This document shows positions 13,307 through 48,587 of a stretch of DNA of 50,239 nucleotides, one piece after another. The stretch spans positions 1 through 50,239 of the forward strand of contig CANJXF010000030.1 of assembly GCA_947478865.1 (NCBI GenBank), in the 5' to 3' direction. This stretch comes from Verrucomicrobiales bacterium (GTDB lineage Bacteria > Verrucomicrobiota > Verrucomicrobiia > Limisphaerales > CANJXF01). The stretch's first letter is position 1, and the number at the start of each line of letters is the position of its first letter. The notes below the pieces were generated by a model. That model saw only the letters and a program-made list of their open reading frames with translations. It was not told where the DNA came from and ran no database searches. The translations under genes and the position numbers were made by a program.

Positions 13307-13353
13307 ACCAGATCGGGTTTTCTGTAACCGATTGGTGACATTTTAAAACGGCG
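13307..13353 (+). repeat. Left copy of inverted repeat bounding the accessory unit
   Basis: It begins ACCAGATCGGGTTTTCTG and ends AAAACGGCG. The middle holds GTAACCGATTGGTGAC, an imperfect 16-bp palindrome. It is the inverse of 14811-14858 with two substitutions and one missing base. Confidence 0.8.
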
Positions 13354-13453
13354 ATTTGCGTCTCGCCATAATTGAAAAAATTGATCGCCCACACCGCTGT
13401 TGCCACACGCGCTCGCGCTTTTCTCCATTCCATCCTCAATCATCCTTGCCGCT

Positions 13454-13584
13454 CCTTGTCCCAGTTCTCGTGACTATCAGACAAACGCGCATCGGCTAAA
13501 TTGATTCTCGTTCTCGGTGAACGTGTGTGAAAATGCCGGACTTGTTATCCGGCTTTTTTTGTACCGGCCCCGTCGCCCGGCCCG
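13454..13584 (+). repeat. Direct repeat copy A with hairpin core
   Basis: Shares with copy B (14688-14813) an interrupted but clear similarity, strongest over GTGAACGTGTGTG...ACTTGTTATCCGGC, the T-run and GTACCGGCC. A third, partial copy in the other orientation is at 47903-47941. In minus-strand order it lies just past the end of the HTH gene. Confidence 0.75.
13535..13560 (+). terminator. Hairpin plus T-run (repeat A core)
   Basis: GCCGGA, loop CTTGTTA, TCCGGC, then seven T: a textbook intrinsic-terminator shape on the plus strand. It lies 233 bp beyond the GH116 stop codon and could end that transcript. The same hairpin recurs in repeat B, where no plus-strand gene precedes it, so its main role may belong to the repeat itself. 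Confidence 0.55.
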
Positions 13585-13594
13585 AGGCGATTCA

Positions 13595-13939
13595 TCACAG
13601 ACCGTTCCGTTGGAATCGTCGTTTCAACGCCAAATCAACCGCGCTCAATTTGAATCGAATATTTCTCGGACCCAGCCGAATGTAAGGTATCAACCCTTTT
13701 TCCATCCAGTTCTGCAACGTGCGCAGGCTGATGTTGCAGTGCTTTGCCGCCTCTTTTTTCATAACCCATCCTTCCGCTGGTGTGGCGGTGGCTCCAAATA
13801 AAGACCCACCAGCCGGGCCTGCGGCCCGCGCATCAATCGTTTCTTTCACCTGGCTGGTGATGATTTCAACAATCGCCCCCGCCAGATTTACAGCCGCACC
13901 GACAAGTTTTTTTGTGTCGGATTGAGTGTGCATAATCAT
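13595..13939 (-). CDS. Small MerR/excisionase-type helix-turn-helix protein
   Basis: 114 residues. The first ~45 form an amphipathic helix (KLVGAAVNLAGAIVEIITSQ) that could mediate pairing. The second half is a winged HTH of the HTH_17/excisionase class: EGWVMKKEAAKHCNISLRTL, then QNWMEKGLIPYIRLGPRNIRF, with the usual 'LxxWxxxGLIPYIRxGxR' core. Such proteins steer tyrosine integrases towards excision or repress element genes. Here it follows the 146-residue unknown gene on the same strand (85 bp gap) inside the inverted-repeat unit and next to an integrase remnant, which supports that role by context. Two starts are possible (ATG 13939 or 13933). Confidence 0.8.
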   Translation of the reverse strand: MIMHTQSDTKKLVGAAVNLAGAIVEIITSQVKETIDARAAGPAGGSLFGATATPAEGWVMKKEAAKHCNISLRTLQNWMEKGLIPYIRLGPRNIRFKLSAVDLALKRRFQRNGL

Positions 13940-14024
13940 TTTTCTGCCTTCGGCCCGTTTCTAAAATCGCCTTGCCCCGTTCCGCACCCCGTCCGCCATG
14001 CTGCTTGCCAAGGAGGTTTCCCCA

Positions 14025-14465
14025 TTACATCCCCATGTAACGCTGCTTCAGTCTCTGGATCTCCGATGCCACCGCGTGCAACGGAAACGATTCGTCTGCG
14101 GCGGATGACCAGTAATACGAAACCGTGGTCAGCCCGTTGCTCACATCCAAAAGATAGCCTGTGCACAAGGACGGCGGATGTTCCGGTTCCTCCAGCGGAT
14201 ATTCCAGCGCCCTGACCATTTGATGGATCGGCAAAAATTCGTCCGGCCGGATGATGTGATCCTGATAAACCAGTTCCTCCGCTTGCACGTCCACGTTGTG
14301 GCGCAGCACAAATTGGTCGTGATGCCGGTGGAACAGCTCGGTGCGCGAGGTCGCCCCGCCTTCCACCGATGTCGTCAAGGTCAGCCAGAGATCCTGCGGC
14401 ACCACCGCGGGCTCAAGGGGCAATTCACCGGGCACCGGTGGAAAAAGCAATGGTTGCCGTGGCAT
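14025..14465 (-). CDS. Unknown 146-residue protein of the accessory unit
   Basis: Not recognised. The start ATG at 14465 (MPRQPLLFPPVPGELPLEP) is chosen because the same initial codons recur, frameshifted, at 48186. The protein is proline-rich at its N-terminus, then mixed and acidic, with HRHHDQFVLRHNVDVQAEEL and a C-terminal part SYYWSSAADESFPLHAVASE that ends in a basic helix (IQRLKQRYMGM). No signal peptide or membrane helix was seen. Its place between repeat B and the HTH gene, and the second broken copy beside another integrase remnant, mark it as cargo or control gene of an integrative element. An in-frame GTG/ATG further upstream (14537) is less likely. Confidence 0.6.
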   Translation of the reverse strand: MPRQPLLFPPVPGELPLEPAVVPQDLWLTLTTSVEGGATSRTELFHRHHDQFVLRHNVDVQAEELVYQDHIIRPDEFLPIHQMVRALEYPLEEPEHPPSLCTGYLLDVSNGLTTVSYYWSSAADESFPLHAVASEIQRLKQRYMGM

Positions 14466-14813
14466 AAGCGCAGTGGGATTAAGTCGCCCAACCTTGCCCG
14501 ATCCATTCTCCGGAATCAACCATCTGAATTTTACCACTCGTAAACCATTTCCTGCTGCGACTCGAATCCGGCGGATTAGCCGGAAGCCGTCCTACGAATT
14601 TTTTCCGGGGCCGCAGGCGCCCTCGGCTGTCCGTTTCCGTGCCTAAATCCTCATTTCCATTTTCCTTCGCGCCCATCTCGAGAAACACCGTCCCACAGTC
14701 CTGGCGACTATCGGAAATCCGCTAATTTGAGAGTGTTCTCAGTGAACGTGTGTGTAAATTACCTGGACTTGTTATCCGGCTTTTTTTTGTACCGGCCTCA
14801 TCGCTCGGGCCGC
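14430..14813 (-). repeat. Repeat B: leader of the unknown gene, shared with 47903-48233 and partly with 13454-13584
   Basis: On the minus strand this ~380-bp stretch runs from the hairpin core through a leader to the first codons of the unknown gene. The whole stretch is alignable with the plus-strand sequence 47903-48233; only the hairpin side (14688-14813) matches repeat A. The leader contains a 69-codon open frame (14688-14479), but the second copy breaks that frame repeatedly, so it is probably not coding. A shared block in both copies reads GGCACGGAAACGGACA. Confidence 0.7.
14763..14788 (+). terminator. Hairpin plus T-run (repeat B core), imperfect stem
   Basis: CCTGGA, loop, TCCGG(C) and eight T on the plus strand. 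One base of the stem bulges compared with copy A. No plus-strand gene precedes it, so a terminator function is uncertain. Confidence 0.3.
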
Positions 14814-14858
14814 CGTTTTAAAAATGTAACCAATTGGTTACAGAAAACCCGATCTGGT
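14811..14858 (-). repeat. Right copy of inverted repeat bounding the accessory unit
   Basis: Inverse of 13307-13353. It contains GTAACCAATTGGTTAC at 14826-14841, a perfect 16-bp palindrome, which may be a protein-binding or strand-exchange site. Confidence 0.8.
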
Positions 14859-14869
14859 GCGCCTTCGTT

Positions 14870-15134
14870 TCGTATTAGACATTGATCTCGCCGCGTTCGA
14901 TGTCCAAAAGCGCCTTTTGGCTTTTTGAAAGTCTTCAGCATGTCTGATAGTAACTTCAATTTGGCGGTGGTGAACACGTCAGTTTCGAGCGAGCGGCGAT
15001 ATATCTTGCCCTTCACTTTGGCGCGTGCAAAATACGCGCCGCTTGGAGTGAATTGCATGAGTCCAGCGTGTTTGTGGAATGTTCGCCACTTTCCGTCTTT
15101 GCTGACGGTGGTTTGCGAAGTAATCTGCGAGCCT
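14870..15134 (-). pseudogene. Tyrosine integrase, N-terminal (arm/core-binding) fragment
   Basis: The minus strand reads KDGKWRTFHKHAGLMQFTPS, GAYFARAKVKGKIYRRSLET and DVFTTAKLKL, the start of integrases common in Verrucomicrobiota ('SGxYFARxKVxGKxxRxSLxTxxFxTAKLKL'). The frame has a stop (TGA, about 15137) before any sensible start. After KLKL the frame appears to shift: another frame gives KSQKALLDIERGEINV and stops at 14875. No catalytic Arg-His-Arg-Tyr domain is present. It lies between tRNA-Lys and the inverted-repeat unit and is a dead relic of the element's integrase. Confidence 0.65.
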
Positions 15135-15155
15135 CAGTTGCGTCTGTAGGCGTTT

Positions 15156-15183
15156 TTGTAGCGACAAAAGTCTGCGTTATACA
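15156..15183 (+). promoter_or_regulatory. Possible sigma-70-like promoter for tRNA-Lys
   Basis: TTGTAG, 16-bp spacer, TATACA, lying about 68 bp before the mature tRNA 5' end. A second TATACAAT sits at 15191-15198. Read by eye only. Confidence 0.3.
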
Positions 15184-15250
15184 ATGCGGGTATACAATTG
15201 GATGATGTGGGACACAAAAAGCGAATAAACGTCAATGTTTACAGTAGTGT

Positions 15251-15323
<73 letters not shown>

Positions 15324-15326
<3 letters not shown>

Positions 15327-47703: not shown

Positions 47704-47902
47704 AATAATCTCCAAATAATGGTTGAACCTCAGTTACGCCGCTTTGCCCCCGTTTTGCAATCATAGACCCTGAATTTCATGCGGAATGAATAACGGAAAG
47801 GTTGAAGATTCGCTCGATGGAGGCGGAGGTCTGAGATATGAATTCCGACTGGCACGGTCTTGGCAGACAGCCAAGCGCGTGATCCCCATCAGGACAAAGA
47901 AT

Positions 47903-48233
47903 GCCGGATAACAAGTTCGGCTATTTTGACACACGTTCACTCAGAGCGCTCTCGGTCCAGAACTGGGGACAAGAGGTGTTTCTCGTGCCGGGTGCAAAGG
48001 TGGCGAAGGAGATTGGAAATGAAGATTGAGGCACGGAAACGGACATCTGAAGGCGGCTGTGGTTCCCGTGAAAACATTCGTGGGACGGGTTTCGTGTGAT
48101 CCGCGAATTCAAGTCGTGGCAGGAAATAGTTTGCGAGGGATGAAACTCCGGGGAATGGATTGGGCGACTTAATCCAATTGCACTTATGCCACGGCAAACC
48201 ATTGAGTTTTCCGCCGGTGCCCGGTGAACTGCC
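47903..48233 (+). repeat. Repeat C: third copy of the hairpin repeat, leader and first codons of the unknown gene
   Basis: Plus-strand match to the minus strand of 14430-14813. It starts with the hairpin core GCCGGATAACAAGTTCGGC (one stem base lost) and ACACACGTTCACT, passes GGCACGGAAACGGACA, and ends in the unknown gene's first ~25 codons. At ATG 48186 one extra A shifts the frame; correcting it gives QPLSFPPVPGELPLEPA, nearly as at 14465. After that the similarity ends. So the gene copy here is a frameshifted stump. Confidence 0.7.
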
Positions 48234-48587
48234 GCTTGAGCCCGCAAGGCAAAACCGAAGTGAAATTCTCCCAACTGGAAAACGCTAACGGATTTCAGCA
48301 AAAAAAGTGGGTCGGCAGTGGGTTCGGTTTTCTGGACATTTGCGCCAGTCTTGGCAACTCCATCACCGCTGATCGGCTTCCTTAGCTGCCTCCGAACTCC
48401 TGTCGGCCCAAAACAATCTAGGCCCAGCCACGAAAAGCGCAAGGGGTGGGCAAATAAAAAATGCGACGGAAAATGAATTTTTTTGCAACATTCGCGATGG
48501 GCTAATTCCGTGCGCGTTTCGGCGTTGAAAAAAGGTCGACCACTTTACTTCCAGGGATTATGAGCAACAGTTAAATCCGATCGGCCT
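48234..48587. other. Intergenic, nothing recognised
   Basis: No start-codon-led frame with a family match on either strand. Its first part is the edge of the accessory scar, and the last ~150 bp (A+T-rich around 48455-48490) probably hold the promoter of the kinase gene. Confidence 0.5.

Follow-up and report, generated by a model that had tools for sequence, protein, structure and literature searches.

The 1.55-kb segment between positions 13307 and 14858 of the contig studied here is probably no self-contained element, but a patch within the scar of an integrative island at a tRNA-Lys gene. The same joint reading takes the two direct repeats inside the segment, A and B, as independent members of an order-wide, dispersed and previously uncatalogued family of promoter-hairpin-terminator units of about 105–190 bp, which are probably small-RNA genes. 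The window, by which we mean the whole stretch of DNA analysed (50,239 nucleotides), is one entire contig (C30) of a 4.4-Mb, 114-contig assembly of a Verrucomicrobiales bacterium.

A preliminary description, made without database searches, had proposed that the segment is either a minimal integrative element or a cassette-like unit whose repeats are its recombination sites, and the parts it listed all exist at the places given (Table 1). The terminal inverted repeats of 47/48 bp are present, and the palindrome inside them is perfect in the right arm and has two changes in the left one. Direct repeats A and B lie where they were placed, but their conserved unit measures 104–110 bp and not 125 bp. 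Profile matches confirm the MerR/excisionase-like gene (to both Pfam HTH_17 and the NCBIfam model "excise"), and the unknown gene of 146 residues (14025–14465, minus strand) has coding-like codon usage solely in that frame. Outside the right arm, the integrase N-terminus shares 61% identity with an intact protein of the phage integrase family, and the tRNA gene beyond it is indeed a tRNA-Lys, with anticodon CTT. Overlooked at that stage was a third repeat copy with the start of the unknown gene next to it, at 47892–48245.

Table 1. Features of the probable island scar and of the third repeat copy in the window
Feature	Position	Strand	Remarks and basis
Inverted repeat, left arm	13307..13353	+	carries imperfect palindrome TGTAACCGATTGGTGACA; genome BLAST
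Repeat A	13456..13565	+	operator-like palindrome, -10-like box, hairpin, terminator-like hairpin; R1 109.9 bits, R2 76 bits
HTH_17/excisionase-type DNA-binding gene, 114 aa	13592..13939	-	Pfam HTH_17 E 2e-8; NCBIfam "excise" E 1.1e-7
Orphan gene, 146 aa, without detectable relatives	14025..14465	-	codon usage; null searches
Repeat B	14690..14793	+	family of repeat A; R1 99.5 bits, R2 60.1 bits
Inverted repeat, right arm	14811..14858	-	carries perfect palindrome TGTAACCAATTGGTTACA; genome BLAST
Tyrosine integrase N-terminal fragment	14915..15103	-	61% identity to intact integrase with Phage_integrase domain
tRNA-Lys(CTT), integration landmark	15251..15326	+	same arrangement in relative G019
Third repeat copy, 5'-shortened, ~0.9 kb from tRNA-Thr	47892..47971	-	R1 67.8 bits
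Truncated, frameshifted copy of orphan-gene upstream region and start	48003..48245	+	76% DNA identity, 267 aligned columns

The intact counterpart of the integrase fragment is found in the relative G019, where it likewise diverges from the 5' side of tRNA-Lys(CTT). In that genome (contig C549; L112, 4024–10310) the intact tyrosine integrase belongs to a tRNA-Lys island and is followed by genes for a SAVED-HNH effector, a cyclase, an E1-E2 protein and a JAB protein, which is a type II CBASS operon. The genome under study has four more integrase N-terminal fragments in the same placement, upstream of tRNA-Ser, -Arg, -Met and -Val genes. The intact G019 counterpart and these four further tRNA-side fragments indicate that integration has recurred at this locus and that the integrase fragment, the HTH gene and the orphan gene in the window are island debris. 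The tyrosine integrase of that island would have been cut down to its N-terminus, and beside it would remain the HTH gene of excisionase type and, as cargo, the orphan gene; we infer that other island DNA was lost. The proposal of a minimal integrative element is therefore right in that an integrative element once occupied this site, as the truncated integrase beside tRNA-Lys and its intact counterpart in a relative attest, but the view that the inverted repeats and repeats A and B delimit one unit finds no support. No second piece of the tRNA-Lys gene of 12 nt or more, which could mark a far-end att site, is present in the window except for a match to tRNA-Thr. A piece at 47.2–47.4 kb beside tRNA-Thr, spotted by eye as possible integrase, has no Pfam support and was not used. 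We note that integrase genes and fragments consistently stand on the 5' side of their tRNA genes and point away from them (window 15103–15251; L112–L119). At several of these loci the stretch between integrase and tRNA holds a pair of GGGATACAA-like repeats with about 14 bp between them, possibly integrase arm sites.

Searches of Pfam, NCBIfam, PHROGs, PDB, plasmids, IMG/VR and 320 same-order genomes turned up no relative of the orphan gene. One match in a Clostridia MAG (35% over 46 residues) was taken as chance, because it had been picked by short peptides from 257 Gb of genome contigs, and a single-sequence AlphaFold model has a pLDDT of 39.8 and is unusable. The third repeat copy adjoins the partial, frameshifted copy of the start and upstream region of this gene, so repeat and orphan gene have travelled together at least once.

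The 48-bp inverted repeats are real, and the island reading does not account for them. The two arms (13307–13353 and 14811–14858) are 94% identical with an E value of 1.9e-13 in a BLAST search of the genome, far beyond chance, and their outer parts (13307–13348 and 14817–14858) are 93% complementary over 42 nt. Such long, near-perfect inverted repeats at both ends, together with an integrase reading frame that breaks a short distance outside the right arm, are features of a non-autonomous transposon-like unit that has inserted into the integrase gene and takes its transposase from elsewhere. We regard this explanation as improbable, however, since inspection of the flanking sequence found no target-site duplication outside the arms, and DNA searches found no second copy of the arm elsewhere in the same genome, in 312 other same-order genomes or in plasmids, where the matches were noise. 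A 19-mer of the arm also lacks a genuine match among viral contigs, the one seen in IMG/VR being a chance match within a gene on a Mu-like phage contig. The inverted arms with their palindromic cores, and the integrase remnants close by, could also belong to an invertible segment, in which the stretch from arm to arm is turned round by a site-specific recombinase and the expression of nearby genes changes; this is very improbable, as no recombinase gene lies inside the arms and no intact one beside them, and no outward promoter was recognised.

The one exception in the search for the arm among same-order genomes is a 22-nt match to the palindrome region in contig C478 of G263, a ParA-like/integrase-bearing contig with iteron-like repeats, which is suggestive but not enough. 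This contig has two sets of GC-rich repeats spaced about 66 bp apart (L079, 1387–1556 and 2786–3022), and the TGTAACCAATTGGTTACA palindrome known from the window's inverted repeat recurs in one of the spacers. That palindrome resembles the one in the direct repeats (TGT-n-ACC ... GGT-n-ACA), with a spacer 2 bp shorter.

Repeats A and B share 82% identity, no more than either shares with lone copies found elsewhere in this genome (79–85%); they are thus not a matched pair. In a search of the same genome contigs C47, C79 and C19 each proved to end in another copy, in addition to the third one in the window. With a covariance model built from six own-genome copies (R1), family members were detected in 43 of 196 same-order genomes, the source genome included, and a second model built from 24 sequences (R2) found the family at E<=1e-3 in 116 of 313 same-order genomes, more than one third, with one weak match among 288 other genomes of the phylum sample. 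The number of copies per genome reaches at least nine with R2, and such numbers are lower bounds because the best 11–18 candidates per genome were scored. Rfam 15 gave no match to the family at the thresholds used, and a literature search for it returned nothing relevant. In other genomes the repeat mostly occurs as a lone copy with unrelated genes on either side, and nowhere else among the sampled genomes do repeats flank the unknown gene and the HTH gene, a result that the preliminary description had itself named as counting against an element. Two genomes of one genus have a copy in common at a conserved place, and there the conservation ends at the outer edge of the palindrome; the synteny of the two (L173, 2092; L178, 2125) stops exactly at this border, like a breakpoint. 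We also note a longer variant of the repeat in G133 (L052, 12195–13020), with a different terminator, which occurs four times within 10 kb; two of its copies enclose a gene of 143 aa, and a paralogue of that gene lies behind another copy.

The left border of the repeat is sharp and is formed by an 18-bp palindrome, TGTCnCCAGnnCTGGnGACT (in a further written form, TGTCACCAGTACTGGTGACA). Of 47 copies, 45 have a TAnnnT sequence that begins at a distance of exactly 22 nt from the palindrome's end, and because this distance is fixed although the intervening sequence is poorly conserved, it has the signature of a -10 box. In the aligned copies it is followed, in this order, by a GTTGTT-like stretch, a hairpin whose loop is often GTTCTC, the sequence GTGTG-AAA, a GC-rich hairpin and a T-rich tract. 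Both hairpins have compensatory changes. In an alignment of 49 sequences 90.3% of the cells are paired, cells with double changes number 86 against 30.2 +/- 4.3 in shuffles, and sliding the partners lowers the covariation score from 0.285 to 0.088 or less; covariation is also present in a MAFFT alignment of 24 sequences that was not fitted to the model. The repeat thus has the covarying structure, the promoter-like box at a fixed position and the terminator-like end of a small structured RNA family.

On these sequence features the likeliest identity of the repeat is a multi-copy small-RNA gene with a promoter controlled from the palindrome. A putative regulator would probably bind TGTCnCCAGnnCTGGnGACT, centred near -43 from the predicted start, and RNA polymerase would use TAnnnT as its -10 box. 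The product would be a short RNA with the covarying hairpin, often with a GUUCUC loop, then a GUGUG-A stretch, and the GC-rich hairpin with the T-tract would end its transcription and complete what may be a regulatory RNA. Repeats A and B by themselves fold no better than shuffled sequence, and the first hairpin is short or altered in the copies of this genome, so these two members may be in decay. A role of the repeats as riboswitch-like 5' leaders was considered and set aside, since such a position, directly ahead of a gene that is read the same way, is found for some copies but is lacking for many.

Pairs of copies in the same orientation within 2 kb number five among the 150 listed copies, the window's pair included, against 0.13 expected (P about 2e-7), and a sixth such pair is present in G133. 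The DNA inside differs from pair to pair. This excess of close pairs around mutually unrelated segments is the main argument for a cassette-like mobile unit, in which the repeats are recombination sites (attC-like or some other single-strand hairpin site) and a recombinase gains or loses the segments between same-orientation repeats, so that A-ORF-HTH-B is one cassette; covariation of the hairpins is also expected of single-strand DNA sites. We nevertheless think this joint explanation improbable. Identity within pairs is not consistently raised, being unremarkable for A and B and 84% in G130, against 81–86% for other copies, and raised in G019 (95%); the G130 pair, moreover, looks like a tandem duplication. 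Genes lie in either orientation to the repeats, no attC core sites (RYYYAAC / GTTRRRY) were seen at the repeat ends when 49 aligned copies were inspected, and recombination has no need of promoter and terminator signatures. The repeats were rejected as integron attC sites on the grounds of the absent core sites and the mixed gene orientation. The identity of A and B, the prevalence of single copies and the end of conservation at the palindrome's edge all disfavour A and B as recombination sites of one element. As to the cassette-like behaviour that the preliminary description had proposed, most members of the family are single, but close same-orientation pairs around small unrelated genes are clearly commoner than chance, and we keep it in consideration. 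If the pairing does reflect recombination, these genomes would gather genes much as integrons do, but with no attC sites.

An insertion sequence is a frequent neighbour of the repeats. Contigs C47, C79 and C19 break within it, and its right end adjoins the repeat. About 20 right ends of this kind are present in the genome (L142–L171, contig ends), and the IS breaks many of the contigs. About half of these right ends run, after an 8-bp target duplication, directly into TGTCNCCA or a near match. In G133 (L052, 559–3339) a 2.8-kb copy of the IS has the duplication GGTGAGCT on both sides and lies flush with a repeat, and the same IS position recurs in G122, G236 and G078 (further loci of the IS include L059, L071, L040 and L041). 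The G133 copy has apparent passenger genes. From our reading of its transposase sequence the IS is putatively of the IS1595/ISXO2 type. Since right ends in this genome and several other genomes have TGTCNCCA next to the duplication, the IS prefers the motif that also starts the repeat palindrome; a literature search on IS1595 target motifs returned nothing relevant. The repeats are not part of the IS, because between its ends and the repeat there is an 8-bp target duplication, a different one in each case. An account that combines these observations, in which the repeats are an order-wide multi-copy small-RNA family with a predicted activator at the 18-bp palindrome, and paired copies serve in addition as boundaries of cargo gain and as landing pads for IS1595-type elements, seems to us rather unlikely as a whole.

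Whichever reading of the repeats is true, the apparent mini-element in the window is best filed as island debris, and the chief find is the uncatalogued order-wide repeat/RNA family. Transcription of the repeats would mean that a large, little-studied order of bacteria has a common regulatory RNA with no Rfam entry, and that the palindrome is a built-in clue to its regulator.

Among known systems, the repeats can be set beside bacterial intergenic multi-copy small-RNA families, with which they share an intergenic position, a promoter-like box of their own, conserved hairpins, an end like an intrinsic terminator and several copies per genome; they differ in having no Rfam 15 match, in the long palindrome that forms their left border and in their pairs around unrelated genes. 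Like REP/MITE-type dispersed palindromic repeats they are short, dispersed and non-coding, with hairpins and sharp borders, but they have a -10 box at a fixed distance and a T-tract, and neither terminal inverted repeats of their own nor a target duplication was recognised. Integron gene cassettes with attC sites are similar in that a short structured repeat lies beside small unrelated genes, sometimes as same-orientation pairs, and dissimilar in that the present repeat lacks attC core sites, has promoter and terminator signatures and is found with genes in mixed orientation, with no integron integrase seen in the window. The locus itself resembles tRNA-anchored integrative islands such as the CBASS-bearing one of G019 in that its integrase fragment diverges from tRNA-Lys and an excisionase-type HTH gene is nearby; unlike those islands it has a truncated integrase, no att repeat that we found and no defence genes left in the window. 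Its integrase also lies on the 5' side of the tRNA, whereas in tRNA-anchored islands the integrase is more usually on the 3' side. Finally, the insertion sequence resembles IS1595/ISXO2-type elements in its 8-bp target duplication, its short terminal inverted repeats and the passenger-like neighbour genes of one copy (L052), but it is a neighbour and not the window's own element, and it inserts next to TGTCNCCA and so strikes several of the repeat palindromes.
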